Shown: positions 14,889 through 54,488 of the stretch, piece by piece | Layout: each line of letters opens with the position of its first letter | Position numbering within the stretch: position 1 is the stretch's first letter | Assembly (NCBI RefSeq): GCF_017569925.1 | Contig: NZ_CP050854.1 | Location: forward strand, 3,534,001 to 3,598,000 | Length of the DNA stretch: 64,000 nucleotides | Reading direction: 5' to 3' | Source of the DNA: Brenneria izadpanahii | GTDB lineage: Bacteria > Pseudomonadota > Gammaproteobacteria > Enterobacterales > Enterobacteriaceae | Notes under the pieces: model-generated | Seen by the model: the letters and a program-made list of their open reading frames with translations, nothing else | Database searches by the model: none | What the model was told of the DNA's origin: nothing | Translations under genes and position numbers: made by a program

Positions 14889-14921
14889 CGCTGTTCTCCC
14901 TTGCCGGCATGGCGCCGTGCG

Positions 14922-15368: not shown

Positions 15369-16005
15369 GCGCCGTCTCCTGAAGCGCCGCCGTCCGATGA
15401 TGGGCGGCCAGCCACTCGGCCAGCGGCCTCGCGATATCTTTCTCCGTGCGGCCAAACCGCTCGGCGGCGTCAAACGCCGCCAGGTTGCGGCGGACCCGCT
15501 CCGGCAACGGCGCGGGAGAACGCCAGTGGGGGGCGAACTCGGAAATAACGGCGTTTTCCAGCGCGGAAGACGGAAGCAAGGAGAGCAGCCCGTTGAGTAT
15601 GCCGAGCAGCACGGTGTTGATATGCCGGCTCCCCAGATGGCGCTCGGCAAGCGCGCTCGCCGGAACGCGCCATTCCAGCCCATAAGGCCGTGGCTGAAAA
15701 CGCTGCTCATGCTTGCCGTCAATCAGAATCAACGATCCGGCGGCAAGCTGTTCGGCGCGTAGCTGCGGCAATAATGTGTCGTCCATCACCACCGCGATCT
15801 GGGCCTGACGCGCCGGACTGCGGTCGCGGATGGGCGAATGGGATAGCCGGGTGTAGGCATAGACCGGCGCGCCCCGGCGTTCAGGGCCGAAAGAGGGAAA
15901 GGCCATCGCCTCAAGATCGGCAAAACGGACCGCTCCCAGCCCCAGCAGTCGGGCCGCGGTAAAAGCGCCCTGGCCTCCCCGCCCCAGCCAAAGAATATCA
16001 AGCAT
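15361..16005 (-). CDS. 2-oxoacid:ferredoxin oxidoreductase, gamma subunit
   Basis: 214 aa. It begins MLDILWLGRGGQGAFTAARLLG, the glycine-rich signature of the gamma (CoA-interacting) domain, continues with SFGPERRGAPVYAYTRLS and ends in a region (residues 115-150, NTVLLGILNGLL) conserved in the family. A C-terminal extension of about 40 residues is rich in Arg and Ala. Gene order gamma-delta-alpha-beta is that of archaeal-type POR/VOR operons, unlike the single-chain NifJ/YdbK normally found in Enterobacterales. Confidence 0.88.
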   Translation of the reverse strand: MLDILWLGRGGQGAFTAARLLGLGAVRFADLEAMAFPSFGPERRGAPVYAYTRLSHSPIRDRSPARQAQIAVVMDDTLLPQLRAEQLAAGSLILIDGKHEQRFQPRPYGLEWRVPASALAERHLGSRHINTVLLGILNGLLSLLPSSALENAVISEFAPHWRSPAPLPERVRRNLAAFDAAERFGRTEKDIARPLAEWLAAHHRTAALQETAHA

Positions 16006-16044
16006 ATTGATGCTACGCCTCTTATGGTGTTTTATCGGTGAGAT

Positions 16045-17379
16045 CTAGAGCGCGCAGGCGCTACGAGTATCGATAACGCGTTTCGCTTTATGGGTGTGGC
16101 GGGGAAGAGTTTCCGGCGCCAGCAGCAGCACCCGTTTGGGACGAACGCCAAGCCGGGCTTTAATCTCCTGATGCAGACGCGCTTCCAGCAGGCCATCCTC
16201 TTCGCCCACATTGCCGTTACGTTCGACTTCGAGATCAAAACGCGTCAGGCGCTCTTCTTCATACAGCGTGATGCGGTATTCGCCATTGAGTTCCGGCGTA
16301 GCGCGCACTATCGCCTCCAGATCGCCAGGAAAGACATTCACGCCGGAGACGATAAACATATCGTCTTTGCGCCCGGTGACCGTGATGCGCACATGGGTGC
16401 GGCCGCAGGCGCAGGGCGAATGGTCGGCGATGATAATATCCCCGGTGCGAAAACGGATCATCGGACGCGCCCGTTTGGTCAGCGTGGTCAGCACCATTTC
16501 CCCCGGTTGGCCGTCCGGCACCGGCTCATCGGTTACCGGGTCCAGCACTTCCAGCAGAATATCGTCCTCCGCCAGATGCAGACCGTTCTTCTCTTCACAG
16601 GAGCCGGCGCAGGCGCCGTAAATATCGGAGATGCCATAAAAATCATAAACCTGAACGCCCCAGCGCGCTTCAATGGCCCGCCGGGTTTCCGGGATCGAGC
16701 CGCCAGGCTCGCCGCATACGATAATACGCTTAAGCGCCAGATCCCGGCGCGGATCGATCCCCTGATCAATCGCCGTTTCCCCCAGATGCCAGGCATAAGA
16801 CGGCGTGGTCCAGGTTATGGTGGGCCGGAAGGTTTTCATGATATACAGCAGACGATCGGATGGGATAGTGCCGGCCCAAAAGCAGAGCGCTCCCAGCTTT
16901 TGAGCGCCGATAACATCCGGCCCGCCGACGAAAAGCGTGAAATTGAGCGCGTGCACATAGCGATCGTCGGGACGCATGCCGATGGCCCAGAAAAGCCGGG
17001 CCTGAATATCCTGATAGCGTTCAAAATCGTCCGCGCTGAAAGGGCTCAGCGTCGGCGAGCCGGTACTGCCTGACGACGCGGAGACGAATACCACCTGCTC
17101 TTCAGGTATGGCCAGAATATCGCCCAGCAAGGGCGCGGCATCCTGCCTCTCCCGTTCAATCCGCTTATCGATAAAGGGGTAACGGCGCAGATCGTCAAGC
17201 CGGCGTAAATCTTCGGGATGTACCCCCGCCCGCTCAAACGCTTCCCGGTAGTAAAGGGAGTGCGCGTAAGCATGAGTGAGCGTGTTTTTTAACCGTTGCA
17301 GTTGCAGCGCCTCAAGATCCTGACGGGGCAGTATCTCCACCTCATCCCAATAACGCCGATAAGCTGTTGTGCTAGTCAT
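16045..17379 (-). CDS. Phenylacetate-CoA ligase family (PaaK-like) AMP-forming ligase
   Basis: 444 aa, the usual PaaK length. Visible: P-loop SASSGSTGSPTLSPFS near residue 100, core motif YDFYGISDIYGACAG near 245, ATP/hinge motifs MIRFRTGDIIIAD near 315 and ITVGRKDDM-like VTGRKDDMFIVSGVNVFP near 340, and a terminal lysine region (RHTHKAKRVIDTR). The reaction would be aryl- or arylacetic acid plus ATP and CoA to acyl-CoA. It is encoded 39 nt upstream of the oxidoreductase gamma gene, so ligase and oxidoreductase would make or use the same kind of acyl-CoA. Substrate unproven. Confidence 0.87.
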   Translation of the reverse strand: MTSTTAYRRYWDEVEILPRQDLEALQLQRLKNTLTHAYAHSLYYREAFERAGVHPEDLRRLDDLRRYPFIDKRIERERQDAAPLLGDILAIPEEQVVFVSASSGSTGSPTLSPFSADDFERYQDIQARLFWAIGMRPDDRYVHALNFTLFVGGPDVIGAQKLGALCFWAGTIPSDRLLYIMKTFRPTITWTTPSYAWHLGETAIDQGIDPRRDLALKRIIVCGEPGGSIPETRRAIEARWGVQVYDFYGISDIYGACAGSCEEKNGLHLAEDDILLEVLDPVTDEPVPDGQPGEMVLTTLTKRARPMIRFRTGDIIIADHSPCACGRTHVRITVTGRKDDMFIVSGVNVFPGDLEAIVRATPELNGEYRITLYEEERLTRFDLEVERNGNVGEEDGLLEARLHQEIKARLGVRPKRVLLLAPETLPRHTHKAKRVIDTRSACAL

Positions 17380-20263: not shown

Positions 20264-21955
20264 ATGTTTAATCGTATAAAAGTAGTTACTGGATTGATTG
20301 CGGTGCTGTCGCTATTCTACCTATCGCAATTAGTTTCCGGCGGGTTGTTCTTTAACGCTCTAACCAACAGTAAAGAATCTTTTAGCACCGCGCAGTTGGT
20401 TAATCAGCAAAAATCGGAATTGGACGCCGCCTGGTCGTTACTGCTGCAAACCCGCATTACCTTGAACCGGGCGGGCACACGAGCGGTGCTGGAACTCAAT
20501 GGTCAGGGAGCCAGGGCGGACTCCAGCGGCCTGCTCGCCTCGGCGAAAACCTCGCTGAATGACGCCAACCAACGTTTTCTCCGCTATGAAAAAACGGCCA
20601 GCGGCATCAAGCGGGATCCCATACTGGCCAGCGAGGTAAAAAAACACTATCTTGCCTACCACGATGCGCTTATCGAACTGATTCAATTCCTCTCAACCAA
20701 CGAAATCCAAAAATTTCTCGATCAGCCGACCCAGGGCTTCCAAAACAACCTTGAAAAAGCCTACCAAACTTACCAGAACGACATTACGCGGATCTATCAA
20801 CAGATAGACGATCAAAACGACCGCAACTATCGGCTATCGCTGTGGACGATGGGGGCGGCGATCGCGCTGATCACGCTGCTGTCGCTACTGGCGTGGTTCG
20901 GCAGCAAGCGCCTGCTGATCCGCCCGTTGGCCGACATTATTGGCTATATCCGCCATATCGCCACCGGCAACCTGTCCTACACGCTGAACGTGCGCGGCAA
21001 GAATGAGATGGGCGTTCTGGCGGATAACCTGCGCCACATGCAGGATGAACTGGTCAGGCTGGTGAGCGGAGTGCGCAGCGGCGCGGAATCCATCCTGACC
21101 GGCGCCACGGAAATCAGCGCGGGCAACAACGATCTCTCTTCCCGTACCGAGCAGCAGGCATCGGCGCTGGAAGAAACGGCGGCCAGCATGGAACAATTGA
21201 CCGCCACGGTGAAACAGAACGCGGAAAACGCCCGCCAGGCCAGCCAGTTGGCGCTGAGCGCATCGGAAAGCGCGCAGAAAGGCGGCGAAGTGGTGAATAA
21301 CGTGGTGTTGACCATGCGCAACATCACCGACAGTTCACAGAAAATCGCCGATATTATCAGCGTGATAGACGGTATCGCGTTTCAGACCAACATTCTGGCG
21401 CTGAACGCGGCGGTGGAAGCCGCGCGCGCCGGAGAACAGGGCCGGGGCTTCGCCGTAGTGGCGGGCGAAGTGCGCAATCTGGCGCAACGCAGCGCGCAGG
21501 CGGCCAAAGAGATCACCGCCCTGATTGACGACTCCGTCAGCCGCGTCAACGAAGGTTCTTCGCTGGTGGAAAATGCCGGGGCGACCATGGAGGAGATCGT
21601 CTCCGGCGTGACGCGCGTGACCGATATTATGGGCGAAATCGCCTCCGCTTCCGACGAGCAAAGCAAGGGCATAGCACAGGTAGGCGTGGCGGTGAGCGAG
21701 ATGGACAGCGTAACCCAGCAGAACGCCGCGCTGGTGGAAGAGTCGGCCACCGCCGCCATCGCGCTGGAAGAACAGGCGCGCGCGCTGAACCAGGCCGTTG
21801 CCGCTTTTCGTCTGTCCGCTACGCAGCAGGCCGACGTTCATCCGGCCACCGAAAGGCGTAAAACGGAAAGCGCGGCGCGGCTGGCGCATAAAACCAACGT
21901 CGCGCTCCCCCGGCCCAAATCCTCCGGCGGCGAAAGCAACTGGGAGACCTTTTAA
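20264..21955 (+). CDS. Methyl-accepting chemotaxis protein, Tsr/Tar-like
   Basis: 563 aa membrane chemoreceptor. TM1 about 10-30, periplasmic four-helix domain about 35-185, TM2 about 190-212, HAMP about 215-268, then the cytoplasmic signalling hairpin with the conserved tip FQTNILALNAAVEAARAGEQ. The C-terminus NWETF is the CheR/CheB tether pentapeptide. In the ligand domain RITLNRAGTR keeps the Arg, Asn, Arg and Arg positions that Tsr and Tar use to bind amino acids, so an alpha-amino-acid-like ligand is likely. RBS AAGGA before the ATG. It faces the sulfonate island convergently. Confidence 0.92.
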   Translation: MFNRIKVVTGLIAVLSLFYLSQLVSGGLFFNALTNSKESFSTAQLVNQQKSELDAAWSLLLQTRITLNRAGTRAVLELNGQGARADSSGLLASAKTSLNDANQRFLRYEKTASGIKRDPILASEVKKHYLAYHDALIELIQFLSTNEIQKFLDQPTQGFQNNLEKAYQTYQNDITRIYQQIDDQNDRNYRLSLWTMGAAIALITLLSLLAWFGSKRLLIRPLADIIGYIRHIATGNLSYTLNVRGKNEMGVLADNLRHMQDELVRLVSGVRSGAESILTGATEISAGNNDLSSRTEQQASALEETAASMEQLTATVKQNAENARQASQLALSASESAQKGGEVVNNVVLTMRNITDSSQKIADIISVIDGIAFQTNILALNAAVEAARAGEQGRGFAVVAGEVRNLAQRSAQAAKEITALIDDSVSRVNEGSSLVENAGATMEEIVSGVTRVTDIMGEIASASDEQSKGIAQVGVAVSEMDSVTQQNAALVEESATAAIALEEQARALNQAVAAFRLSATQQADVHPATERRKTESAARLAHKTNVALPRPKSSGGESNWETF

Positions 21956-22289: not shown

Positions 22290-23228
22290 CTACCCGCCTG
22301 ATACCCCATAACGCGTACCGCATCGCGCCTTCGCCCGGCGGATGATGTCGTTCGCTAGTTGGGGCGGCAGCCGCCGCTCCGCCGGGAAATAGTCCCGCCC
22401 CAGCAGACGGTATTTGTCGCTGCCTAAACGGTGGTAGGGCAAAATTTCATAGCTGACCCGCGCCAGCGGAAGGATAAAGTCGATAATCGGGTTAATGTCA
22501 TCCCACGCGGCGTTAAACCCTGGGATCAGCGGCGTGCGGACATGAATGGGCAAATCGGGAAACGCACGACGCAGACGCAATAAATTGGTCAGAATGCGGC
22601 GATTGCCGCGTTGGGTAAACCGGCGGTGCCGTGCGTCGTTCAGGCTCTTAACATCAAAGTAAACCGCATCGGCGTAGCCGGCGATCTCGCGCAGAACCGG
22701 CCAGTTGCCGTCGCCGCAGGTTTCCAGCAGCGTATCGATATTTCTTCGCTTTGCTTCCTGCAACAGCGCCAGCGCAAACGCCCCTTGCATCAAGGGTTCG
22801 CCGCCGCTCAGCGTCAACCCGCCGCCGGAGCGGCGATAAAAAACCGCGTCGGACTCCACGATATCCAGCACCTGCGCCACCGTCATCCGTTCGCCAAAAT
22901 GATGCAAAGCCCGCGTAGGGCAACTGGCGACGCATTGCAAACAGTGAGCGCAACGGCTGCGGTCAATGCTTATCTCTCCCGACGGCGCGTAGCCTAGCGC
23001 CGCCGTCCGGCATTGGGGCGCGCACAGCCCGCAGATCGCGCCGCCCAGACATTTGCCGACATCAACGGCGATTTCCGGCGTGCCCGTCTGGGATTCGGGG
23101 TTACTGCACCACGCGCAGCGCAGCGGGCAGCCTTTCAAAAACACCACCGTGCGGATCCCCTCCCCGTCATGCAGAGAGTAACGCTGAGTATTAAATACCC
23201 AGCCGGTAGGCTGTTCGGCGCAAAGCGA
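22290..23228 (-). CDS. islB: Glycyl-radical enzyme activating enzyme (radical SAM), partner of the sulfite-lyase
   Basis: 312 aa. Radical SAM cluster KGCPLRCAWCSNPES (CxxxCxxC) near residue 30, then a ferredoxin-like insert with two Cys sets, CLGGAICGLCAPQC and CAHCLQCVASCP, typical of activases of non-pyruvate glycyl-radical enzymes. SAM contact GGEPLMQG follows. It would abstract hydrogen from the glycine of the enzyme encoded 74 nt upstream. The frame is open to 23282 without a ribosome site; I prefer MSLCAEQPTG at 23228, but the start is uncertain. Named islB by pairing with the adjacent lyase. Confidence 0.82.
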   Translation of the reverse strand, partial: SLCAEQPTGWVFNTQRYSLHDGEGIRTVVFLKGCPLRCAWCSNPESQTGTPEIAVDVGKCLGGAICGLCAPQCRTAALGYAPSGEISIDRSRCAHCLQCVASCPTRALHHFGERMTVAQVLDIVESDAVFYRRSGGGLTLSGGEPLMQGAFALALLQEAKRRNIDTLLETCGDGNWPVLREIAGYADAVYFDVKSLNDARHRRFTQRGNRRILTNLLRLRRAFPDLPIHVRTPLIPGFNAAWDDINPIIDFILPLARVSYEILPYHRLGSDKYRLLGRDYFPAERRLPPQLANDIIRRAKARCGTRYGVSGG

Positions 23229-23302
23229 CATGGCGGGTTTACCGTAACCGCAGGCCGTAACTAACGGTCGGCAGCAGAGCATTCGTTAATAACGACATCG
23301 GT

Positions 23303-25783
23303 CTAAAACATTTCGTGCCCGGTGCGGGCGATCAGGTCATCCTGCAAATCCGGCGACAAATCGGTGAAATAGGCGCTGTAACCGGCGATGCGCACAATCA
23401 GCCCGCGGTAACGCTCAGGATCGGCCTTGGCCGCCAGCAGGGTTTCGCGGTTAATGACGTTAAACTGCACATGCCACAATTTCAGATCGCACCAGGCTCG
23501 GATCAAATCGCACAGTTTGCGCGTTCCCGTCTCCCCCGCGACAATCGACGGCGTGAATTTAATATTCAGCAATCGCGCCGCCCGTTCGCGGAACTGGTAG
23601 TTCTTGGTCTGATAATTCGACAGCAGCACCGCCGTCGGCCCTTTGCTATCGCATCCCTGAGAGGCCGATGAACCATCGGACAGCGGCATCCAGGCCTTAC
23701 GGCCGTTTGGCGTGGCATGCACCACTTTGCCGAACGGCACGTGGGAAGTGAAAGGCACCAGCCGAAGATCAAGATGCACGCCAAGCGTGCGCGAATAGTT
23801 GCGGGTGAATTCCAGGCACGCTTTATCCAGCGCTTTGCCGATGTCATCGGCATAGGGATCGTTGTTGCCGTATTTAGGGGCATTCATCAGCAGGGCGCGC
23901 AGCACCTGATGATGCTCAAAATTGTTTTCCAATGCCTCCAGCAGTTGAGACATTGAAACGCGCCGCTCTTCGTAAACCAGTTTTTTGATCGCCGCCAGCG
24001 AATCAATCACCGTGCCGTAGCCCATAAATTCGAAGTAGCCTAAATCAATCCCGCCTTCGATCGCCGGCTGATGGATATCTTTGCAGGCCGTCATGGCTAA
24101 ATCATGCAAGGCCGAGCCCAGCGGCCAGGCAAAATGCCTGGCCCGTAAATCGATGATGATCTTTTGCTGGATAAAGGCGTGGCGCAGAAAATTAAGATGC
24201 TGCCTGATATAGGCCTGCCAAAAATCCTCCCATGAGGCGAAATTCAGCGCATCGCCGGTTTCCAGGCCGAGCCGTTCTGAACCGTAGCGTTTCATCCGCC
24301 CGTTATAGAGCGTCATTTCCAGCGCCGCCGGGAAATTGATATAGGCGCAGGGGCTGGTATAGGTATCGCGGTTCGGCATCCGGCACTCGGCGCAGCCGGA
24401 AACCGCATAGTCATAGGCCTGGGGAAATTCGGCGCCTTTGGATAGCAGCAAGGGAACGACTTCTTCATCATTAATCAGTTTAGGGAAGCCGGTTCCCTCT
24501 TTAATCGTCTCCGCGATATCGTGAAGAAAACGCGCGGGCGTGCGGTTGTGAATACGCGCGGCCAAATCGGGATAATGCAACGGAAACTCGCGTTTGGAGC
24601 GTAAAAACAGGTGCGACAACGCGTTGGTGGCATCCATACCGTCCGGCGTCTGCCCGCCGATGGTCACCGCTTCCCAGTGCGCATAGCCTTCGTTAAACGC
24701 GCCGCCGGTCGGGGATATATAGAGATCGACAAACTGCGCCATGGCGACCCACACGCAGGATAACCACTCCAGCGCCTGTTGGTCATTCAAGACGCCCCGT
24801 TCGATATCCCGCTGATAATAAGGGAAAAGGTACTGGTCCATCCGGCCATTGGAAATAATGGTGCCGGTTTTCTGCTCCAGGCGGGAAAAGAGCTGGGTAA
24901 ACCACTGCGCCTGAAGGGCGTCACGGAAGTCCCGCGCCGGATGTTCCGGCACTCGCTCGCAGCGCTCGGCTATCTCCAGCAGTTCCTGCCGCCGCCGGGG
25001 ATTGCTTTCTTTCTCCGCCAGCTCTCCGGCAAGCCGCGCGTGACGCTTCGCCCACAGCACGATCGCATCGGCGGCGATGATAATCGCCTGTAAGAACGGC
25101 GCTTTCTCCACGTTATCAACCGGATTAAACGGGTCCAACTGCGCCAGCCGCTGCTCGGCGTCCTGGCGGATGCCTTTAAACCCACGCTGCAACACCTTTT
25201 CATAATCATGCACCCATTGAATGGAAGAGCGGAAAGAGGAGGTTTCATTGACGATAAAGCGGGAAGTCTGCCGGTCTTTGGGATCATAAGTCAGACGCAA
25301 CGTCTCTTCCGGCAATGCCTGGGACAGGCTCTCATGATAGGTTTTGCCTTGCCAGTAGGGGGAAATTTCCTCACGAATAATCGCGCTGTCCCGTTCATCA
25401 ATAGTAAACGGCGACTCCAGCCGGGAAGGAAGCTGGCTGATGGCCGCATCAAGAAAATCGCCGTCCAGTTCGGGATACAAAATGCCGTAACGCCCCGGCT
25501 TACCGGCCCGGCCGACGATTAACTGCTCATCGTCGATATAAACCGTGATGTTGCGCGCAATGTGATACATCGCCTTCGCCCAGCGCAGGATCAATAACTG
25601 CCCTTCCGTTGCGCGCATCGACTCGGTGAAATAGCGGGCGCGCTCAACGTCAATGCCGGGTTTCCCCTGCTGAATGTCGGCCAATATCTTATCTGTTCTG
25701 CGCTGTTGCCTGACCTGCGGAGCCGCGTTGGCTTGCAAAATACGCGATTCCTGCGGACTCAATACCGGTGCATCCTGACTCAT
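23303..25783 (-). CDS. islA: Glycyl-radical C-S lyase, probable isethionate sulfite-lyase
   Basis: 826 aa, size of IslA/HpsG-type enzymes. Catalytic Cys464 and Glu466 lie in [12 protein letters not shown]; the glycyl radical site is Gly801 in [10 protein letters not shown]. By eye, R185, Q189, R674 and F678 fall at a constant offset from residues I recall as lining the isethionate pocket of Desulfovibrio/Bilophila IslA; one recalled Phe is Val676 here. Expected reaction: isethionate to acetaldehyde plus sulfite, anaerobic, cytoplasmic. It follows ssuB by 37 nt with GGGGAG before the ATG, so importer and lyase share an operon. Alternative: a 2,3-dihydroxypropanesulfonate lyase (HpsG). The glycyl-radical family is certain, the sulfonate role likely. 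Confidence 0.78.
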
Positions 25784-25820
25784 TGCTCGCTCCCCGTTCT
25801 ACGCGCAGCCGCCGATGCGC

Positions 25821-26615
25821 TTATTCGTTAACCTGTTGGCGGCCTATCTCCGCAATCTCCCCGGAACGCGCCTCATGGCGGTTAAAAATATGTTCCAGCA
25901 CTTCCTGCTCCAGCGCCGCCAGGCGGGGCGATCCCCGCTTTCGCGGCCGCGGCAGATCGATAGTCAAATCCAGGCCGATGGTTCCCTGCTCGATCAGAAT
26001 CACCCGATCGGCGATACCGACCGCCTCGCTGACATCGTGCGTCACCAGCAAGACGGTAAAACCCAGCTCCAGCCATAAACGTTCGATAAGCTGCTGCATT
26101 TCAATGCGGGTCAGCGCATCCAATGCGCCAAGCGGTTCATCAAGCAGCAGCAGACGCGGGCGATGGATCAGCGCGCGGGCTAACGCCACGCGCTGTTTTT
26201 GCCCGCCGGATAACGCCGCCGGCCAGTCGTTTTCCCGCCCGGCAAGCCCCACCTCTTCCAGCGCCTCCCGCGCTTTGGCTTTCCAGTCCCCCGTCAGGCC
26301 GATGCCCACATTTTCAATCACTTTCTTCCAGGGAAGCAGTCTGGCATCCTGAAACATCAGCCGGATATCCTGACGAAATTGATGCAACGGCTGATTCCCC
26401 GACAGCAGTTGCCCGGCGTTGGGCTTTTCCAGACCGGCGAACAAACGCAGCAGGGTGCTTTTGCCGCAGCCGCTGCGTCCGACCACCGCGACAAACTGCC
26501 CGGCGGGGATCTGCAAATCCAGGCTATGCAATACCGAACGCTGATTAAAATGCTTATCAAGCCGCTGTGTGGCCAGCGAAATTCCCTGATTAACGGAATA
26601 GATACGGGCGCTCAT
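25821..26615 (-). CDS. ssuB: Alkanesulfonate ABC transporter ATP-binding protein
   Basis: 264 aa ATPase. Walker [12 protein letters not shown], signature [15 protein letters not shown], Walker [18 protein letters not shown]-loop [11 protein letters not shown]; the [21 protein letters not shown] stretch and the [17 protein letters not shown]-terminus follow E. coli SsuB closely. It overlaps the permease gene by 4 nt. In E. coli ssuB ends the operon ssuEADCB; here it is followed by the glycyl-radical lyase gene. Confidence 0.93.
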
Positions 26616-27403
26616 GCCTCACCTCCGGTTGATTGATAGGAAGGATGCCAACGCAGCCAGCTTCGCTCCAGCAGACGGGCGGCGATATCCGCCAGTTTGC
26701 CAAGCACGGCATACAGGATAATGGCCATCACCACGACATCGGTTTGCAGAAATTCACGGGCATTCATCGCCAAATAGCCGATGCCGGCGCTGGCGGAAAT
26801 GGTTTCCGCCACAATCAGCGTCAGCCACATCAGGCCAAGCGCAAAACGCACGCCGACCAAAATGGAAGGCAACGCGCCGGGAAGAATAACCTGGCGAAAC
26901 AGCGCAAAGCCGGATAGCCCGTAATTACGCGCCATTTCCACCAGCCCGGCATCGACATGACGCACCCCGTGGTAGGTATTCAGATAGATAGGAAAGAAGG
27001 TGCCCAGCGCCACCAGGAAAATCTTGGCTGATTCATCAATCCCGAACCACAGAATAACCAGCGGGATCAACGCCAGATGCGGAACGTTGCGCACCATCTG
27101 CACCGTACTATCGATCAGCAGCGCGCCGAAGCGCGATAGCCCGGTAATCAATCCCAGCAATAAACCGATGCTTCCGCCGATGCCGAAGCCAACCGCCGCC
27201 CGCCAACTGCTGATCGCCAGGTGTTGCCATAGTTCGCCGCTGTAGGCCAGCGTCCAACCCGCCTTAAGCACCGCGCCCGGCGCCGGCAGTATTCGGGTGG
27301 ACAGCCAACCGGCCGTCACCGCCCCTTGCCAGGCGATAATCAGCAGCGTCGGTATCAGCCAGGGGATCAACCGCGTCAGCGTCTGTTTAACTATGATATT
27401 CAT
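26612..27403 (-). CDS. ssuC: Alkanesulfonate ABC transporter permease
   Basis: 263 aa inner-membrane permease, very like E. coli Ssu[62 protein letters not shown] (EAA loop) and [19 protein letters not shown]. It moves aliphatic sulfonates across the inner membrane with SsuB and SsuA. The gene lies 48 nt after ssuA. The monooxygenase gene ssuD, which sits between ssuA and ssuC in E. coli, is absent. Confidence 0.93.
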
Positions 27404-27451
27404 CGAATTCCTCTCCTGATAAAACGCGTTGACGGAGTAGTAAGTGATGGA

Positions 27452-28390
27452 TTACTGAGGCTGAGCCCACACCGCCTGCTTGATATCCAGCTTTTGCGGA
27501 ATGAGCTTTAAGTCTGTGAAGGTATCGGCGATACGCTGCTGGCCGGCTATCACCTCCGGCGAAATAAACTGCGCGTCATAGCCCTGCCGCTCGACGGCAA
27601 CCAGGGTAATATCCTCTGGCAACCCCAGCAGCGGCGCCACCTGCCGGGTGACCGCCTGCGGATCCTCGGTGGCTTTCTTGCCGATGAGACGTATCTCTTC
27701 GATCAGCGCGGTGATGACCTGCGGGTGTTTCGCCGCGAAATCGCGGGTAGCCAGATAAAACTGATAATTATCGACGATGCCGCGGCCGTCCCGCAGCACG
27801 CGGGCATGGATCTGTTTTTCCGCGGCGGCGCTGAAAGGATCCCAGATGACCCAGGCATCGACGCTGCCGTTTTCAAATGCCGCGCGGGCATCCGCCGGCG
27901 GTAAATACACCGGAGTAATATCGCCGTATTTCAACCCGGCTTCGTATAACGCCCGCACCAATAAATAGTGAACGTTAGACCCCTTATTTAACGCCACTTT
28001 CTTTCCTTTCAAATCCGCCACCGAGCGCAGCGCGGAGTTTTCGGGCACCAGAATCGCTTCCGCCGTTGGGGACGCCGGTTCATTGGCGACATAAACCAGA
28101 CTGGCTCCGGCGGCCTGGGCAAATACCGGCGGCGTTTCGCCGGTAAAGCCAAAATCGATGGAGCCGACATTTAATCCTTCAAGCAATTGCGGGCCGCCGG
28201 GGAACTCCGTCCACTTTACCGTGACCCCTTGCGGACGCAGTCGTTTTTCCAGCGCGCCGTCTCCCTTTAGCAACACCAGCGTAGTGGCGGATTTCTGATA
28301 GCCAATGCGTAAAACGTCTTCTGACCAGGCGGCGGCGGAAAACGCCATAGAAATAATGAAAAGAAGACCATAGCGGAGAAAGCCGAACAT
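27452..28390 (-). CDS. ssuA: Aliphatic sulfonate-binding protein
   Basis: 312 aa periplasmic receptor. Signal peptide MFGFLRYGLLFIISMAFSA with cleavage near AWS/E; mature start EDVLRIGYQKSATTLVLLKG. SsuA features: FPGGPQLLEGLNVGSIDFGF, PPVFAQAAGASLVYVANEP, and TPVYLPPADARAAFENGSVD. The frame begins at 28414, but the ATG at 28390 gives the clean signal peptide. First gene of ssuA-ssuC-ssuB-islA-islB, so its ligand is probably the lyase substrate or its precursor. Confidence 0.9.
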   Translation of the reverse strand: MFGFLRYGLLFIISMAFSAAAWSEDVLRIGYQKSATTLVLLKGDGALEKRLRPQGVTVKWTEFPGGPQLLEGLNVGSIDFGFTGETPPVFAQAAGASLVYVANEPASPTAEAILVPENSALRSVADLKGKKVALNKGSNVHYLLVRALYEAGLKYGDITPVYLPPADARAAFENGSVDAWVIWDPFSAAAEKQIHARVLRDGRGIVDNYQFYLATRDFAAKHPQVITALIEEIRLIGKKATEDPQAVTRQVAPLLGLPEDITLVAVERQGYDAQFISPEVIAGQQRIADTFTDLKLIPQKLDIKQAVWAQPQ

Positions 28391-28585
28391 AAATGCACCG
28401 TAAAATAGAAACAATAATATTGCATCCTAGCCCCTATCAACCGGCGGTATGAAACATCAGTTATTGATAAGGATATCGATTATTTATCTAATGGGTTATT
28501 TAAGAGGAAATATATTTTCACCCATCCATTAATATACGTTTTCTATTAACGCGTTTGATGACAACGTTTGACGTTGCTGTTAATT

Positions 28586-28733
28586 ACCCCCTCCCTATCT
28601 CCCCCTTGTCAGGGGGAGGAGCAACACATAAAAACGCTAGGTTTCTCCTTCTTCTGCGACGGGGAGCGACACATGAAAGCGCCGGTTTCTCCCTCCCCTG
28701 CGAAGGGGAGGGCCGGGGTGGGGTTAGATCCAA
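28586..28733. repeat. Intergenic palindromic repeat, copy 3
   Basis: Starts TACCCCCTCCCTATCTCCC, palindrome CCCCCTTGTCAGGGGG, a central GCAACACATAAAAACGC stretch, then CTCCCTCCCCTGCGAAGGGG and AGGGCCGGGGTGGGGTTAGA. Same design as the other copies. It lies in the roughly 600-nt divergent region between ssuA (28390) and the second ssuA-like gene (28986). The sequence on both sides of it is strongly A/T-rich and should hold the two promoters; no further gene is visible. Confidence 0.8.
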
Positions 28734-28985
28734 AAGGCGTGTTAGCGATTTCTATTAAATAGCCCAAATGTTAATATCAACGGTGATAAATGATTTAAAA
28801 TCCGCACCATTATTTTCCATTTATTTTACTCTATAATTAATATCGTATTTACTTTGCTTAAAATAGCATTAAGGCATATCCAATAGTGAAAAACCGGCAA
28901 TAAAAAGACAACTATCGTCTTTGACAGTTTTTATTTTTTTATCAAGCATACCCCTTTATTTTATCTATTTTATGGGATGCCTGTT

Positions 28986-29975
28986 ATGCCACTATTATAT
29001 TGGGCTAATCGCCGATTCATCGCCATGCCGCTGTTTTTATTTATTTTCCTATTCTCAATATTCACGCTTTCCCCGGTTCAGGCAGAATCGACGTTGCGCA
29101 TCGGTTACCAAAAGTCGTCTACGCTGCTCACCATCCTGAAATCGCAGGGGTTGCTGGAAAAAACGCTCAATGAACAAGGGGTACAGGTGAGCTGGCATGA
29201 GTTCTCCAGCGGATTGCCGCTACTGGAGGCGCTTAATTTGGGCAATGTGGATATTTCCGCCGACGTGGCGGATACCGTACCGGTGTTCGCACAGGCGGCG
29301 GGGGCAAAGCTGACCTATCTGGCGCTGGAAACCCCCTCCCCCGCGGCGCAGGCGATTCTGGTGCCGGAACATTCGCCGCTTAAAAGCCTGGCGGAGCTGA
29401 AAGGCAAACGCATTGCCGTCACCAAGGCGGCAGGCAGCCACTTCTTACTGATTGCCGCGCTCGCCAAGGCCAATCTCTCTTTTAAAGATATTACGCCGGC
29501 CTACCTGACGCCGGCCGACGGCCGCGCGGCGCTGGAGAACGGCAACGTCGACGCCTGGGTAACCTGGGAACCCTTCGTCTCCAGCGCCATCGTTCAGCAA
29601 AAAGCCAGAGTGCTGGCCGATGGCGAAGGGCTGGCGAGCTATCAGCGTTATTATCTTGCCTCAACGGACTACGCCCGCCAACATCCTGAAATTCTGAACA
29701 TTATTTTTCAACAATTGGAAAAAACCGGCCAGTGGGTGAAGGCGAATCCTGACCAGGCGGCGGCGTTGCTGGGGCCGCAGTGGGGCAATCTGGATAGCGA
29801 TACGGTCAAGCTGGCTAACGCCAACCGCACCTATCAGGTCAGGCCGGTCACGCAGCAAAGTTTAAGCGAGCAACAGCATATCGCCGACGCATTTTTCAAT
29901 GAAGGACTGCTGCCTAACCATATCAACGCGCTGGACGTCGCGATCTGGCATCCCACGACGGGGCAGAGCCAATGA
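28986..29975 (+). CDS. Second SsuA-like sulfonate-binding protein
   Basis: 329 aa periplasmic receptor, clearly homologous to the SsuA encoded divergently (LRIGYQKSSTLLTILKSQG, LPLLEALNLGNVDISADV, VPVFAQAAGAKLTYLALE, ITPAYLTPADGRAALENGNV). Signal segment MPLFLFIFLFSIFTLSPVQA. ATGs at 28977, 28986 and 29025 are possible; 28986 has GGGAT 8-12 nt upstream. It overlaps the SauS-like gene by 4 nt and has no dedicated permease or ATPase, so it probably docks onto SsuBC. Its partners suggest sulfoacetate as ligand, by inference. Confidence 0.85.
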   Translation: MPLLYWANRRFIAMPLFLFIFLFSIFTLSPVQAESTLRIGYQKSSTLLTILKSQGLLEKTLNEQGVQVSWHEFSSGLPLLEALNLGNVDISADVADTVPVFAQAAGAKLTYLALETPSPAAQAILVPEHSPLKSLAELKGKRIAVTKAAGSHFLLIAALAKANLSFKDITPAYLTPADGRAALENGNVDAWVTWEPFVSSAIVQQKARVLADGEGLASYQRYYLASTDYARQHPEILNIIFQQLEKTGQWVKANPDQAAALLGPQWGNLDSDTVKLANANRTYQVRPVTQQSLSEQQHIADAFFNEGLLPNHINALDVAIWHPTTGQSQ

Positions 29976-31396
29976 CGGCTGGCGGCGATCGCTGCCGGGC
30001 GACGCATCGTTCGGCGGTAAGCAGGTTGGTTGAACAGGCCCGCCATGCTCAGCAAAGTATTGAACATTACCCTCAGCAGCAAATCGATCGGGTGGTTGAC
30101 GCGGCGGCCTGGGCGATTATTCATCCTGAGAATAACCGGGCGTTGGCCATCCAGGCCGTCGCCGATACCGGTCTGGGCGACGTCGAAGATAAAGTGGCGA
30201 AGAATTACCGCAAAACCATCGGCCTGCTGCGCGATCTTCAGGGGAAACGCACCGTCGGGGTCATTAATGAAATTCCCGACCAAGGCATTATTGAAATCGC
30301 GCGGCCGGTGGGGGTGGTCGCGGCGGTCACGCCCTCCACCAACCCGGTCGCCACGGTGATCAATAACATTATCAATGCGCTAAAATGCCGCAACGCCATT
30401 ATTCTTGCGCCTTCCCCCGCCGCGGCAAAGGTGTGCGCCCGGATGCTGGAGTACATCCATCATGAGCTGGACTTCGTGCAGGCCCCGCGCGAGCTGGCGC
30501 AGATGCTGCCGATCCCGGCGAATCGCGAACAAACGGACGAGTTACTGCAACAGGCCGATCTGATCATCGCCACCGGTTCGCAAAAAAATATCGCTGCCGC
30601 GGCGCAAAGCGGCGCCCCGGCCTTCGGCGTCGGCGCCGGCAATGTCGCCAGCATCATCAGTGAAACCGCGGATATTGCGGCCGCCGCCGCCCGCATCGCC
30701 GCATCCAAAACCTTTGACAACGCCACTAGCTGTTCTTCTGAAAATAGCCTGATTATTCCCGTTTCCCGCTATCAGCAAACCATTGCGGCGTTGCAGGATC
30801 AGGGCGGCGTGTTATTAACGCCGGCGGAGAAACAGCATCTGCGGCAAGCGCTCTGGCGGGAGGGAAAGCTGGCCCGCCACAGTATCGCGCGCCCCGCCGG
30901 CCAGTTGGCGGAGATCGCCGGCTTGACGCGCCAGGCGTGTCATAAAGCGCGTTTTCTGCTGGTGGAAGAGCAAGGAATCGGTCCGCAATTCCCCTTTTCC
31001 GGCGAAAAGCTCTCACCGGTATTGACTCTGTACCAGGTGAAAGATTTCCGCCATGCCTGTGAGACGGTGCGGCGGATTTACCGCTGGCAAGGGGCCGGAC
31101 ATTCGGTCGGCCTGCATACCCGCGACAGCAACGAGGCCGTGCAGGCCGGGCTGTCGCTGCCCGCCAGCCGGATCATCGTCAATCAGGCGCACTGTTTCGC
31201 CGCCGGCGGCAATTTCAATAACGGTCTGCCCTTTACCCTGACGCTCGGCTGCGGCACCTGGGGGAAAAACCATTTCACGGACAATCTCAATTACCGTCAT
31301 TTTTTTAATCTGGTTAGAGTTTCGTCGCCGATACCCGAAAACGAACCTGCGTTGGAAGAGGTTCTGGGCGGCTATTTGCAGAGGCGCTACCCATGA
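29972..31396 (+). CDS. sauS: CoA-acylating aldehyde dehydrogenase, probable sulfoacetaldehyde dehydrogenase (SauS-like)
   Basis: 474 aa, acylating aldehyde dehydrogenase superfamily (AdhE N-domain, PduP, SauS). Nucleotide-site region RPVGVVAAVTPSTNPVATV near 111-129, PAFGVGAGNVAS near 216-227, catalytic Cys254 in NATSCSSENSLI, and the C-terminal GHSVGLHTRD. Expected reaction: sulfoacetyl-CoA plus NAD(P)H to or from sulfoacetaldehyde plus CoA. Coupled by overlapping ATGA to the binding-protein gene and to the ligase gene. Alternative: acetaldehyde dehydrogenase that removes the lyase product as acetyl-CoA. The family is sure, the substrate is inferred from context. Confidence 0.72.
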   Translation: MTAGGDRCRATHRSAVSRLVEQARHAQQSIEHYPQQQIDRVVDAAAWAIIHPENNRALAIQAVADTGLGDVEDKVAKNYRKTIGLLRDLQGKRTVGVINEIPDQGIIEIARPVGVVAAVTPSTNPVATVINNIINALKCRNAIILAPSPAAAKVCARMLEYIHHELDFVQAPRELAQMLPIPANREQTDELLQQADLIIATGSQKNIAAAAQSGAPAFGVGAGNVASIISETADIAAAAARIAASKTFDNATSCSSENSLIIPVSRYQQTIAALQDQGGVLLTPAEKQHLRQALWREGKLARHSIARPAGQLAEIAGLTRQACHKARFLLVEEQGIGPQFPFSGEKLSPVLTLYQVKDFRHACETVRRIYRWQGAGHSVGLHTRDSNEAVQAGLSLPASRIIVNQAHCFAAGGNFNNGLPFTLTLGCGTWGKNHFTDNLNYRHFFNLVRVSSPIPENEPALEEVLGGYLQRRYP

Positions 31397-32937
31397 GCGC
31401 GCTACCGGCAACGCTACAGGACATCTTGTTGCGGCATACCGCTGAACGCCCGGACGCGCCGTTTATTATCGCCGGCGATTCGCCTGACGTTCTGAATTTC
31501 GCCCAACTATTGCAAAGTACAACCGCCACCGCGGCATGGCTGCGCCGGCAAGGTTGCCAGCCGGGAGATAAAATCGCTTTTCTGTCGCAAGGCGGTTTTC
31601 ATACCGTCAAACTGGCGCTCTCTTTGATGCTGGCCGGCTATGTGGCGACGCCGCTCAACCTGCTGGCGACCGACGAGGCGCTGGAGCGAATTATTCCCCA
31701 CAGCGACGCGCGGATTATTTTCACCACGCGCCGACTTGCGCCCCGCTTGCAGGGCATACTGCAACGGCTTCCCGCACAGCAAAGACCGTTGATGATAACC
31801 CGCGATCGCTGGCCTGCCGACGAACAATTATTATCCGAACGCGCAGCCCCGCTCTATCGGCCGGCGCCGTCGCACCCCGCGTTACTGATGTACACCTCCG
31901 GCACCACCGGAAACCCGAAGGGCGTGCTGCTCAGCCATGCCAATCTGCTCGCCGCCGCGGGTGAAATCAGCCGCTGGCACCGGCTTGGCCCGCAGGATCG
32001 GTTGCTGAGCACGCTGCCGGTTTACCACATTAACGGCTGGGTTATCGGCGTGCTGGTTCCACTCTTTTCAGGCGGCAGCCTGGTCGCCATGCGGCGTTTC
32101 TCCGTCTCCGCCTGGTGGAAAATGGTTGAGGATCATCGTTGCACCTGGCTGAATCTGGTGCCCACCATGATCGCGTTTTTATTAAATGCCGATGACGGCG
32201 GTGCACGGCGCTATCCGCGGATAAGGTTTGCCCGTTCGGCCTCCGCACCGTTGCCTCAAACCCACCACGAACAGTTTGAACAGCGTTTCGGCATCCCGGT
32301 GATTGAAGGCATGGGAATGACGGAGGCCAGCTCGCTGGTTTTCTGTAATCCTCATGCGCAACGGGTATTCGGCAGCGTCGGGCTGCCCTGCGGCGTCGAG
32401 GCGGCGGTCATCGATAAGCAGGGAGAACGGCTGGCGGATAACCGCGTGGGGGAAATCATGCTGCGCGGCGCCGGCGTAATGAACGGCTACTACAAAGACG
32501 CCGTGCAGACGGCTTCCGCCATCGATCGGGACGGATGGTTGCGCACCGGCGATTTGGGCTATCGCAACGACGAGGGGTTCTATTTTATTACCGGCAGGTT
32601 GAAGGAGCTGATTATTAAAGGAGGCGAGAATATCGCGCCGCGGGAAATCGATGACGTGCTGGTCGGCTACCCGGCGATTATGGAGGCCGCCGCTTTCGCC
32701 ATTGCCGACGCCGACTACGGACAGGAAATCGCCGCCGCCATCGTCCTTAAGGCCGGTTGCCGGTTGGATGAAAACGCGCTGCGGGAATGGTGCCGGGAGA
32801 AACTGGGGAAATACAAAACGCCGCGCTATTTCTATGCGGTGACCAGCCTGCCGCGCGGCGCCTCAGGCAAAATTCAGCGTCTTAGGCTGGGTGAACTGCT
32901 AACGGTTAATCCGGCGGATACCCATGCCCGAACCTAG
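31393..32937 (+). CDS. sauT: AMP-forming acyl-CoA synthetase, probable sulfoacetate-CoA ligase (SauT-like)
   Basis: 514 aa adenylate-forming ligase. P-loop MYTSGTTGNPKG (166-177), VIEGMGMTEAS near 307, RTGDLGYRNDEGFYFITGR near 390, IIKGGENIAPREID, and the catalytic Lys motif RGASGKIQRL near the end. With the SauS-like enzyme it would activate sulfoacetate to sulfoacetyl-CoA and reduce it to sulfoacetaldehyde, the gene pair known from Cupriavidus necator. It overlaps sauS by 4 nt and converges with tauC across a 92-nt gap. Other short carboxylic acids cannot be excluded. Confidence 0.7.
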   Translation: MSALPATLQDILLRHTAERPDAPFIIAGDSPDVLNFAQLLQSTTATAAWLRRQGCQPGDKIAFLSQGGFHTVKLALSLMLAGYVATPLNLLATDEALERIIPHSDARIIFTTRRLAPRLQGILQRLPAQQRPLMITRDRWPADEQLLSERAAPLYRPAPSHPALLMYTSGTTGNPKGVLLSHANLLAAAGEISRWHRLGPQDRLLSTLPVYHINGWVIGVLVPLFSGGSLVAMRRFSVSAWWKMVEDHRCTWLNLVPTMIAFLLNADDGGARRYPRIRFARSASAPLPQTHHEQFEQRFGIPVIEGMGMTEASSLVFCNPHAQRVFGSVGLPCGVEAAVIDKQGERLADNRVGEIMLRGAGVMNGYYKDAVQTASAIDRDGWLRTGDLGYRNDEGFYFITGRLKELIIKGGENIAPREIDDVLVGYPAIMEAAAFAIADADYGQEIAAAIVLKAGCRLDENALREWCREKLGKYKTPRYFYAVTSLPRGASGKIQRLRLGELLTVNPADTHART

Positions 32938-33029
32938 CCAGCTAACGAGCGAGTGGCGGAAATGGGGTTGCGCCGATAGTTTTGAGTTTTTGCCAACCGC
33001 GCCATGAGCAAATCTCAACGCAATCACCG

Positions 33030-33863
33030 CTACGGCGTTTGACCATGCCAGGGAGCCAGTTTGCGTTGCAGGTAGCGCAGCCCGATTTCCATCACAAACG
33101 CGATGCAGGCAATCACCAGGATCCCCAGAATCACCACCTCCGTCACCAAAAACTGCGAGGCGGCCTGCACCATAAACCCTAACCCTTGCGTCGCCGCCAC
33201 CAGTTCCGCCGCCACCAGCGTTGACCAGCCAACCCCCAGCCCAATACGAACCCCGACCAGAATATCCGGCAGCGCGCCGGGGAAAATAACATAGCGGATA
33301 AGCTGTAACGGCGTCGCGCCCAACGTCTGGGCCGCCAGCAGTCTGGCCGGATCCGCACTGCGCACGCCATCGGCGGTCGCAATCACAATAGGAGCCAGAA
33401 TAGCCAGATAAATCAGCAATACCTTGGAAAACTCGCCGATGCCGAACCAGATAACGATCAGCGGAAGATAGGCCAACGGCGGGATCGGTCGATAGAACTC
33501 GATTATCGGATCAAATATGCCGCGGGCGATCCGGCTGCGCCCGATCGCGACGCCCAGGGGGATCGCCGTCAATAGCGCCGCCAGCAGCGCCAATCCGATA
33601 CGTTGCAGGCTGGCGGACAAATGGTGCCATAACGTGGCGTCCATATACCCTATGGTCGCCAACTGCCATAACCGCCGTAATACCGCGCCGGGCGAAGGAA
33701 GAAATAACGGCTCGATGAGGCTGAACCGGGTCAACAGCCACCATGCCAGCAACAGCGCGCTGATGCTGATGGCGCTGATGAAAATGAGCGGCAGCGGTTT
33801 TTTAACCGCTGGCCGTCTCTGGGGGCTATTTTGCTGTGTTGCTGGGTTATCGACGACGCTCAT
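33030..33863 (-). CDS. tauC: Taurine ABC transporter permease
   Basis: 277 aa inner-membrane permease matching E. coli TauC in the segments [36 protein letters not shown], and [20 protein letters not shown]. The EAA loop is [20 protein letters not shown]. It overlaps tauB by 4 nt. In E. coli tauD (taurine dioxygenase) follows directly; here the operon stops and the opposite-strand SauT-like gene ends 92 nt away. Confidence 0.93.
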
Positions 33864-34666
33864 GACGAACTATCCTCATCGTGATTTGAAAACTGTTCGC
33901 GTTCGGCAAACACGCGGGAGAGAACATGCTCGCGCGTTTCAATAAACACCGGATCGGATTTTATGGCCCGCGCGCTTTCCCCATCCGCATAGCGTAAGCT
34001 GAAGCCAAGTTTTAAATGCTCGATAATGCGTCCGGGATGCGGCGACATCACGATCAGATCGGTTGCGAGGAAGATGGCTTCTTCAATATCGTGGGTGATC
34101 AAAAAAACCGGCTTAGCCGCTTTTTGCCACACCGTAAGCAGCAGTTCCTGCATCTGTTCGCGCGTGAACGCATCCAGCGCGCCAAAAGGTTCATCCAACA
34201 GTAAAATTCGCGGATCGGCCGCCAGCGCTCTGGCGATCCCCACGCGCTGCCGTTGACCGCCGGAAAGCTGCCACACCGCCCGACGCTCATAGCCGCTCAG
34301 CCCAACCTGCGCCAGTAGCTTGCGGGCTTTCCGTTCGCGCTCCGCTTTCGGCGCGCCGGCCAGTTCCAGCCCGAAAGCCACATTGCCCAGCACGTCCTGC
34401 CACGGCAGCAGCACATCATGCTGAAAAACGACGCCGCGTTCCGGCCCCGGTCCGGCCACGGCCTCGCCATCAAGCGAGATTGCGCCCGCCTCAGGGTGAA
34501 TAAACCCGGCGATCAAATTGAGCAGCGTGGTTTTCCCGCTGCCCGACGGCCCCAGCGCCACCATCAGTTGTCTGGCTGATAGCGTAAGAGAGATATCTTC
34601 CAGCACCGGCCGTTCGCTATCGGGATAGCGCGCGCTAACCCGTTCCAGTTTCAATAATGTCATCAT
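33860..34666 (-). CDS. tauB: Taurine ABC transporter ATP-binding protein
   Basis: 268 aa ATPase, TauB type: [21 protein letters not shown] (Walker A), [56 protein letters not shown] and [20 protein letters not shown]. The C-terminus [20 protein letters not shown] matches E. coli TauB. Start at 34666 or one codon later (two ATGs in tandem). 53 nt after tauA. Confidence 0.93.
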
Positions 34667-34719
34667 GTATCCGCTGGCAAATTATCCCGCGCTCCGCTAA
34701 GAGCGCGAAAACTCACGCA

Positions 34720-35697
34720 TCATTCAGGAACATATTTGGCGGTAACATATGGCGAATAATCAGGCAAAACGGCGTCTATACGCCCCTGCTCCTTGAGAAA
34801 CGCCGCCGTATCGGAAATGGCCTTCACCGTTGGCGCGCCAAGCGATTCCCGCTGTTCATCGGCCAGAGGATAGGTATTCCCCTGCAGCAAGCCGGGGATA
34901 TCTTCCGCTTTGGCACCGGTGATCTTCACCAACTTATCGATGTTGCTTTTATCCGCCAGCCAGGCTTGCGGATCCTGGCGATAGCTGGCGTAGGCATCCT
35001 GGGTGACTTTGGCAAACGCTTTCGCCGCCTGCGGATGCTTCTCGGCAAAATCCTTGCGCACCAGCCAGACATCAAATGTCGGCGCGCCGAGCTTTGCCAA
35101 ATCCCCGGAGGAGATCAGAACGTCGCCGCTCGACTTCGCCACGCCGAGCGCCGGATCCCAGGTATAGGCGGCATCGATATCGCCGCGTTGCCAGGCGGCG
35201 CTGATGGCCGGTGGATTGAGATTCAGAATCCGCACCGTTTTCGCGTCAATATTCCAGTGCTTAAGCGCAGCCAACAGGCTGTAATGGCTGGTGGAAACAA
35301 ACGGAGTCGCGACTTTTTTGCCGACTAAATCTTCAGGCTTTTCAATACCGGCCCCATTGCGCACCACCAGCGCTTCGCTGGTTCCCAGTTTGGAGGCGAT
35401 CAGCAATGTTTCAACCGGCACTTTCTGACTCACCGCGGCGGCATAAGGGCTGGACCCCAGATAGGCGATCTGCACGTCGCCGGAGGCCACCGCGGCGATC
35501 ACTTCCGCCCCGGCATCAAATTTGCGCCAGTCTATTTTCAAACCGGTGGCGTTTTCATACGCGCCATCCGCCTGCGCCACCTGCGAAGGATCCGGAATAG
35601 TTTGGTACGCCACGGTAAAATCGGTGGCGTTCGCTATAAAACTCAGGCTGATTAACACGCTTGCGGCTAACGCCGGACGAAAAAACGAATATTTCAT
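34720..35697 (-). CDS. tauA: Taurine-binding periplasmic protein
   Basis: 325 aa. Signal peptide MKYSFFRPALAASVLISLS, cleavage after NA-T; the mature protein starts TDFTVAYQTIPDPSQVAQAD. Taurine-receptor features as in E. coli TauA: WRKFDAGAEVIAAVASGDVQ, STSHYSLLAALKHWNI, PPAISAAWQRGDIDAAYTWD, and DYSPYVTAKYVPE at the end. Leads tauA-tauB-tauC. The 248-nt region before it (35698-35945) is A/T-rich, holds its promoter and shows no gene. A Cbl/CysB site is expected from E. coli but I could not define one. Confidence 0.93.
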   Translation of the reverse strand: MKYSFFRPALAASVLISLSFIANATDFTVAYQTIPDPSQVAQADGAYENATGLKIDWRKFDAGAEVIAAVASGDVQIAYLGSSPYAAAVSQKVPVETLLIASKLGTSEALVVRNGAGIEKPEDLVGKKVATPFVSTSHYSLLAALKHWNIDAKTVRILNLNPPAISAAWQRGDIDAAYTWDPALGVAKSSGDVLISSGDLAKLGAPTFDVWLVRKDFAEKHPQAAKAFAKVTQDAYASYRQDPQAWLADKSNIDKLVKITGAKAEDIPGLLQGNTYPLADEQRESLGAPTVKAISDTAAFLKEQGRIDAVLPDYSPYVTAKYVPE

Positions 35698-47950: not shown

Positions 47951-47973
47951 CGCGTTATTCTCGCTATTCGTTA

Positions 47974-48579: not shown

Positions 48580-48601
48580 GGTTTACCCTCACTCTTTTCC
48601 G

Positions 48602-49890: not shown

Positions 49891-49914
49891 CCGATAAACT
49901 CCTGTTTAATATAT

Positions 49915-52629: not shown

Positions 52630-52642
52630 GGTTATTCTCTTC

Positions 52643-53588: not shown

Positions 53589-53590
53589 AT

Positions 53591-54322: not shown

Positions 54323-54488
54323 TGATTACCCCTTAACAGGCTATCGTTTATTGCATTTTATTGCGGAATTACCCATTTTTTGCTTCCGCTCTCCCCATGA
54401 AGGTTCTCCATAAGTGGGATATGCCGCATCGGAGAATATTGCGTGCGCGATAAAGCCGTCATTGCCCCCTGCAAGCGGGTTGCGGCCG
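54323..54488 (-). other. 166-nt gap between cbiL and cbiM
   Basis: The only sizeable gap inside the otherwise overlapping cbiA-cbiP set. I looked for a B12 box or a cobalamin-riboswitch fold and for a gene on either strand and found none. A GGGG element and the cbiM ATG close it. It may carry an internal promoter for the cobalt transporter genes or an RNA processing site, but no motif proves this. Confidence 0.4.

Follow-up and report, generated by a model that had tools for sequence, protein, structure and literature searches.

The well-known enterobacterial enzymes of sulfonate desulfonation, SsuD and TauD, require oxygen, and the ssuEADCB operon of Escherichia coli combines the SsuABC importer with the oxygen-requiring SsuD monooxygenase. 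The glycyl-radical isethionate sulfite-lyases and their activases, IslAB/IseGH of Bilophila wadsworthia and Desulfovibrio vulgaris, are described as respiratory enzymes (PMC6453916, PMC6386719). Their main holders are named as Deltaproteobacteria, Clostridia and Negativicutes (PMC6386719), and the IseG loci are described with tripartite ATP-independent periplasmic (TRAP) or major facilitator superfamily (MFS) carriers (PMC6453916). For Bilophila, a review describes a route from sulfoacetate via isethionate, comprising SauCD, SauS, TauF and IseG (Liu X. et al., 2023, as described in PMC12890257). In Rhodobacter capsulatus, IsrBHDK and an SsuCAB importer are reported to assimilate the sulfur of isethionate anaerobically, and Bilophila islAB could substitute for NflDK (PMC11423573). 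Here, we analyze a 13-kb island (positions 22290..35697) in a 64,000-nucleotide stretch of the Brenneria izadpanahii genome (NZ_CP050854.1, positions 3,534,001 to 3,598,000; hereafter the window, to whose positions all coordinates refer), in which a glycyl-radical enzyme and its activase stand behind ssu-type importer genes. We favor, with some reservation, the interpretation that the island serves to scavenge sulfur from C2 sulfonates without oxygen, the substrates being isethionate and, less surely, sulfoacetate.

Genes were assigned to families with Pfam and NCBIfam profile models and their cut-offs. The list of open reading frames (ORFs) and the family scans match the genes named in the original prediction: the ssuACB and tauABC importers and an extra SsuA-like receptor fall into the expected families, and the glycyl-radical enzyme and activase retain the motifs required of them. 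Five minus-strand genes form an apparent operon in the order ssuA1-ssuC-ssuB-glycyl-radical enzyme-activase, with gaps of 48, −4, 37 and 20 bp. It comprises the sulfonate-binding protein SsuA1 (27452..28414; PRK11553, score 331, cut-off 299), the permease SsuC (26612..27403; PRK11365, 452, cut-off 347), the ATPase SsuB (25821..26615; PRK11247, 435, cut-off 395), the glycyl-radical enzyme (23303..25783) and an IslB/IseH-like radical S-adenosylmethionine activase (22290..23282). The activase exceeds the cut-off of the PFLE_PFLC model (313, cut-off 174), does not reach that of the HpsH model (399, cut-off 430), and contains a CX3CX2C motif and eight cysteines of ferredoxin type. In comparison with E. 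coli ssuEADCB, SsuA, SsuB and SsuC are shared, whereas islAB occupies the place of SsuD; ssuD, ssuE and tauD are all absent from the 11 island genes in both the ORF list and the family scans. The island shares with IslAB/IseGH a 62–67% identical enzyme, equal residues at 11 active-site positions and an adjacent activase, but differs in its location behind ssuACB, its enterobacterial host, its separate branch in the enzyme tree, and a set of 11 genes that includes none for a microcompartment or a TRAP carrier. Anaerobic assimilation of isethionate sulfur through an Ssu-type importer would be common to the island and the IsrBHDK/SsuCAB system, although the latter is described as using a nitrogenase-like enzyme with no glycyl radical.

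The glycyl-radical enzyme consists of 826 amino acids, and its radical motif, IVRIAGYSA, is intact. Among solved structures, it matches 5YMR best (1262 bits, 66.8% identity), followed by 7KQ3 (1221 bits, 62.4%) and 6LON (1142 bits, 60.0%), the last of which we take to be HpsG. The papers on 5YMR and 7KQ3 describe them as IseG and IslA, respectively, each with isethionate. The catalytic Cys464, E466 and the radical G801 are all present in the window enzyme, as are the sulfonate-binding residues R185, Q189 and R674, which are the same in HpsG. In IslA, variants at G805, C468, E470, Q193, R189, R678 and V680 are reported to have no detectable activity, and those at F682, W374 and I192 to have reduced turnover (PMC8473560). 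When these 10 mutated positions and T312 were compared (11 positions of our own selection), the window enzyme agreed with both IslA and IseG at every one of the 11, whereas HpsG deviated from IslA at three (192, 312 and 682 in IslA numbering); at these, I188, T308 and F678 of the window enzyme match IslA/IseG, and HpsG has L, A and I. In a wider comparison of 146 columns in which IslA and IseG agree and HpsG is different, the window enzyme sides with IslA/IseG in 79, with HpsG in 23 and with neither in 44. The enzyme is likely an isethionate sulfite-lyase of the IslA/IseG type, and the earlier expectation of such a sulfonate lyase within an ssu gene set is supported by its sequence.

A tree of 97 rows was built with LG+G4, a short search and a distant outgroup, with branch support given only as the Shimodaira–Hasegawa-like approximate likelihood ratio test (SH-aLRT); 22 of its 94 inner branches are drawn open, and one row (L062) attaches via long branches. 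The seven enterobacterial rows form a single clade (SH-aLRT 100), which groups with Sporomusa, Selenomonadales, Nitrospiraceae and a few other rows (SH-aLRT 98). Nine HpsG-like rows group together on a long stem, without the window enzyme, in a clade that nests in a 70-row set (SH-aLRT 95) also containing IseG and IslA. The window enzyme belongs to the same radiation but lies outside this set, which includes the tested lyases, and the tree therefore does not fix its substrate. Thus, of the comparison with IslA and HpsG proposed in the original prediction, the active-site residues favor isethionate, whereas the phylogeny leaves the substrate open.

Divergent from this operon, a plus-strand unit comprises ssuA2, sauS and a ligase gene, with a 4-bp overlap at each junction. 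SsuA2 (28977..29975), a second sulfonate-binding protein, is 45% identical to SsuA1 and exceeds the cut-off of TIGR01728 (231, cut-off 163.5) but not that of PRK11553 (270.5, cut-off 299). The product of the next gene (29972..31396) scores 716 with the model of SauS, the CoA-acylating sulfoacetaldehyde dehydrogenase (NF047625, cut-off 600), and 322 with that of the acetylating acetaldehyde dehydrogenase (cut-off 620). The scores of three control dehydrogenases from other islA loci are reversed (332–339 and 646–655, respectively), and by this contrast an aldehyde dehydrogenase merely removing the product acetaldehyde was rejected. The AMP-forming acyl-CoA ligase (31393..32937; AMP-binding) is over no curated-family cut-off among the best 25 of 105 families, but is 43–49% identical to three ligases that adjoin other SauS genes; because of this identity and its synteny, it is probably a SauT-like sulfoacetate-CoA ligase. 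The predicted SauS/SauT-like pair is thus upheld for SauS by the model contrast, whereas SauT, with no hit over cut-off among these 25 families, is assigned by context and identity.

Of 35 plasmid records with SauS relatives, eight were opened and seven were annotated; in all seven, a CoA ligase follows SauS (AMP-forming in four, ADP-forming in three). The loci of Caballeronia NK8 and Paracoccus TOH share with the window the order of SauS (53–54% identical) and an AMP-forming ligase (43–45% identical). They differ in having MFS or tripartite tricarboxylate carriers and, in Paracoccus TOH, Xsc nearby, and none of the seven annotated stretches contains a glycyl-radical enzyme. In the B. izadpanahii genome, Xsc remains below the cut-off (344, cut-off 676). 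The Bilophila route, as outlined in the review, likewise feeds a glycyl-radical isethionate lyase by means of a CoA ligase and SauS; however, its SauCD is ADP-forming, whereas the island encodes an AMP-forming SauT-like ligase, is likely assimilatory, and belongs to a genome without a SarD-type reductase over the cut-off. The SauS-SauT branch of the window probably acts on sulfoacetate, although this is less certain than the action of the lyase on isethionate.

A feasible model of the island is as follows. SsuA1 and SsuCB would import isethionate, and the activated glycyl-radical enzyme, whose active site matches those of proven enzymes, would cleave it to acetaldehyde and sulfite. The sulfite would then be converted to cysteine via the ordinary assimilatory route, so that the radical enzyme would do without oxygen what SsuD does with oxygen, behind the same type of importer. 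In the less certain branch, SsuA2 would import sulfoacetate using the shared SsuCB, the SauT-like ligase would convert it to sulfoacetyl-CoA, SauS would produce sulfoacetaldehyde, and a reductase encoded outside the island would form isethionate. The sulfur-assimilation role suggested by the original prediction is a probable one in terms of gene content. Of the route that it had drawn, from sulfoacetate or taurine-like C2 sulfonates via isethionate to acetaldehyde and sulfite, the lyase and SauS are in place, but the island encodes neither a sulfoacetaldehyde reductase nor a taurine aminotransferase.

These two absences weigh against the proposed model, as do several other observations. The SarD model remains below its cut-off genome-wide (270, cut-off 700; other reductase families were not searched), and the only alcohol dehydrogenase recognized beside the enterobacterial islands of relatives is a YiaY-like, iron-type enzyme in Serratia, 326 bp past sauT (YiaY model 533, cut-off 581; SarD model 268, cut-off 700), which may be unrelated. 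The best match to this enzyme in the B. izadpanahii genome (46%) lies among rhamnose-type genes and appears FucO-like by eye; it was not adopted as the reductase. The missing step would be filled most simply by a housekeeping reductase. Likewise, no FNR-like site was found at one mismatch or fewer in the divergent intergenic region (28415..28976) or elsewhere near the operon; a scan of the window gave a single match, at 11405, where 1.74 are expected by chance. As regards the enzyme itself, the HpsG letter L at position 192 occurs in 15 of the 80 fetched relatives, and T312 makes no substrate contact according to the IslA paper, although its IseG counterpart is said to form a van der Waals contact (PMC6453916). 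Identity to HpsG is only slightly lower than that to IslA, and the place of the enzyme outside the set with IslA, IseG and HpsG also counts here.

The last two points are shared by an alternative in which the enzyme cleaves another hydroxy-sulfonate, such as dihydroxypropanesulfonate, as HpsG-like enzymes do, or a different hydroxyalkanesulfonate delivered by Ssu. The window enzyme also passes the NCBIfam HpsG model (NF048011) with 1546 bits (cut-off 1000). However, this model scores the proven IslA (7KQ3, 1504 bits) and HpsG (1508 bits) alike; the HpsG label is therefore non-discriminating and was rejected as a guide to the substrate. Since NF048011 accepts true isethionate lyases, annotation based on it can misname them. 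Given the IslA residues at all three positions where HpsG differs and the exclusion of the window enzyme from the nine-row HpsG-like clade, we regard this alternative as unlikely, yet it is the strongest of those considered. Somewhat less likely is that SauS and the ligase work oxidatively, converting taurine-derived sulfoacetaldehyde to sulfoacetate for excretion, unconnected to the radical enzyme. The adjacency of tauABC to sauST and the aminotransferases beside islAB in some relatives would fit this direction, in which the related SqwD/SqwKL pair is described as working (PMC12890257). However, the window island contains no aminotransferase, and in Samsonia and G368, which have one, the fetched stretches contain no sauST. 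In addition, AMP-forming ligases favor acyl-CoA synthesis.

Bilophila and Desulfovibrio use sulfite as an electron acceptor and reduce it to H2S, and such a dissimilatory role is the one that has been proven elsewhere for IslA/IseG (PMC6453916, PMC6386719). For the island it appears improbable: its importers are of the ATP-binding cassette type, whereas the IseG loci are described with TRAP or MFS carriers. Moreover, Enterobacteria are facultative. The most speculative variant, to which we attach very little weight, is that the enzyme branch splits the hydrate of sulfoacetaldehyde directly into acetate and sulfite, with no reductase, while also using isethionate. This would explain why sauS and islAB, which were probably joined more than once, have no recognizable reductase nearby in the loci inspected, Serratia apart; if true, the reaction would be new among glycyl-radical enzymes and would shorten the anaerobic desulfonation of sulfoacetate. 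The isethionate lyase model outlined above remains the preferred one.

The importer context of islA in other genomes fits sulfur nutrition. Genes for a binding protein, permease and ATPase like those of the window were counted within 8 kb of islA at a loose threshold (E ≤ 1e-10), in groups drawn after the neighborhoods had been inspected; full 8-kb flanks were available in 39 of 82 loci, and the misses are therefore partly contig ends. Across five clades, 27 of 43 loci have such Ssu/Tau-type genes (enterobacterial, 5/6 with the window excluded; Paenibacillaceae, 4/5; clostridial group, 13/21; Sporomusa/Nitrospira-type, 3/8; alphaproteobacterial, 2/3), as opposed to 2 of the remaining 39, most of which bear the names of sulfate reducers.

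Three alphaproteobacterial loci likewise combine islA with neighboring genes for SauS and a CoA ligase. In Telmatospirillum siberiense, ssuA-ssuC-ssuB-sauS-sauT-islA-islB all run in one direction, and sauS-sauT-islA is found on a short contig from a Rhodospirillaceae metagenome-assembled genome (MAG); SauS was labeled by BLAST alone in these two (54 and 56%, respectively). An Acetobacteraceae MAG has SauS (743 bits) and an ATP-grasp CoA-ligase subunit beside islAB. Because islA of these loci belongs to the IseG/IslA group, on another branch than its enterobacterial counterpart, the sauS-islA coupling was probably assembled more than once. This is firm from the islA tree and partial from the SauS tree, in which the Acetobacteraceae SauS groups with Azospirillum and Indioceanicola (99/99) but, to the detriment of this view, the branching among the Telmatospirillum pair, two Burkholderiaceae and the enterobacterial clade lacks resolution.

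At 80–100% identity, the glycyl-radical enzyme occurs in 6 of 392 genomes of a family sample, including the window's own, and is absent from all four further members of the genus sampled there; the order sample (394 genomes, E ≤ 1e-250) and the phylum sample (398 genomes, E ≤ 1e-200) each contained it solely in the window's own genome, and E. coli in none of 5,426 genomes (80% query coverage). No close copy was found on plasmids (30 records) or in phages (4 records), all matches being below 60% identity. A scan of named genomes, from which 80 of 273 loci were kept, identified Brenneria sp. hezel4-2-4 (96% protein identity, the nearest named relative, in agreement with the “enteric-type” genome that had been predicted), Serratia marcescens 1001295B_180824_A7, Samsonia erythrinae and Sodalis sp. 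dw_96 as holders. At the nucleotide level, the window and the Brenneria locus cease to be similar right behind the activase (window 22289; the other end lies outside the comparison), so the two flanks differ on the activase side. A Tar-type chemoreceptor gene (20264–21955, plus strand) is convergent to the activase gene in the window, and the Brenneria locus has no similarity there.

With neighboring genes labeled by BLAST to window genes or by eye, islAB was counted in seven enterobacterial genomes, the window's own included. Since the island arrangement is repeated in other genomes, it is not due to chance. Both sauS-sauT and ssuA2 are present in five (the window, Brenneria, Serratia, Sodalis dw_96 and genome G364) and both are lacking in the fetched stretches of two (Samsonia and genome G368), which also have no ssuCB ahead of islA. 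No ssuA1 was seen in Sodalis dw_96, and G364 has only a 179-residue piece. In these two genomes, an SsuD gene follows islB in the same direction, and its product is 81% identical to the SsuD of the window genome; islB and SsuD may thus share a transcript. An omega-aminotransferase adjoins islAB in Samsonia and Sodalis (560 and 589, AptA cut-off 500), with homologs at the islAB loci of G368 and G364 (90 and 71% identity). In Brenneria sp. hezel4-2-4, a 645-amino acid ORF (L005:14413–16350, minus strand) combines a sigma-54 activator domain (residues ~1–264) with an NMT1-type binding domain (~351–572), near one gene that resembles FMN (flavin mononucleotide) reductases and another that, judged by eye, resembles SsuD; its product is possibly a one-component sulfonate sensor.

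The components of the island are known, and it is their combination and the enterobacterial host that appear new: among the entries listed from an open-license library and the opening lines of their abstracts, none placed islA within an ssu operon of an enterobacterium. The chemistry is a known one, set in a host and gene context that appear new, together with a plausible new version of the sulfoacetate route. The island suggests that a few enterobacterial lineages have put a radical enzyme known from strict anaerobes behind an ordinary ssu importer for anoxic conditions, and in two genomes ssuD still adjoins islAB. If true, isethionate lyase would extend from sulfite respiration to sulfur nutrition, and sulfoacetate would be linked to its chemistry in genetically testable hosts.

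As for the remaining features, tauABC lies farther out on the minus strand, convergent to sauT. It comprises the taurine-type permease TauC (33030..33863; Pfam BPD_transp_1 and its place within tauABC), the ATPase TauB (33860..34666; PRK11248, 427, cut-off 357) and the binding protein TauA (34720..35697; TIGR01729, 450, cut-off 304; PRK11480, 406, under 490). The case for a taurine branch in this genome is weak, as the island has no aminotransferase; the one in the genome nearest that of Samsonia is 43% identical and lies, by eye, beside LysR-like genes. A genome search gave no TauD-family match. A classical SsuD is encoded elsewhere in the genome (C1:26612–27649; 630 bits, cut-off 518). Spacing within the gene units of the island ranges from −4 to +53 bp. 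SsuA1 is listed with a TTG start, but an in-frame ATG at about 28390 agrees better with relatives and is probably the true start, which would make the divergent gap 586 bp. Outside the island, an anaerobic-looking minus-strand cluster (12590–17379) encodes two 2-oxoacid:ferredoxin-oxidoreductase-like subunits (the VorB/PorB and archaeal PorA models score highest, none reaching its cut-off), a Fer4 protein and a PaaK-like AMP ligase, with a MetQ-like binding protein just beyond. A serine hydroxymethyltransferase relative is encoded at 9002–10225 on the plus strand (199, family cut-off 335), and a long minus-strand run (46886–63998) resembles, by eye, cobalamin biosynthesis genes.

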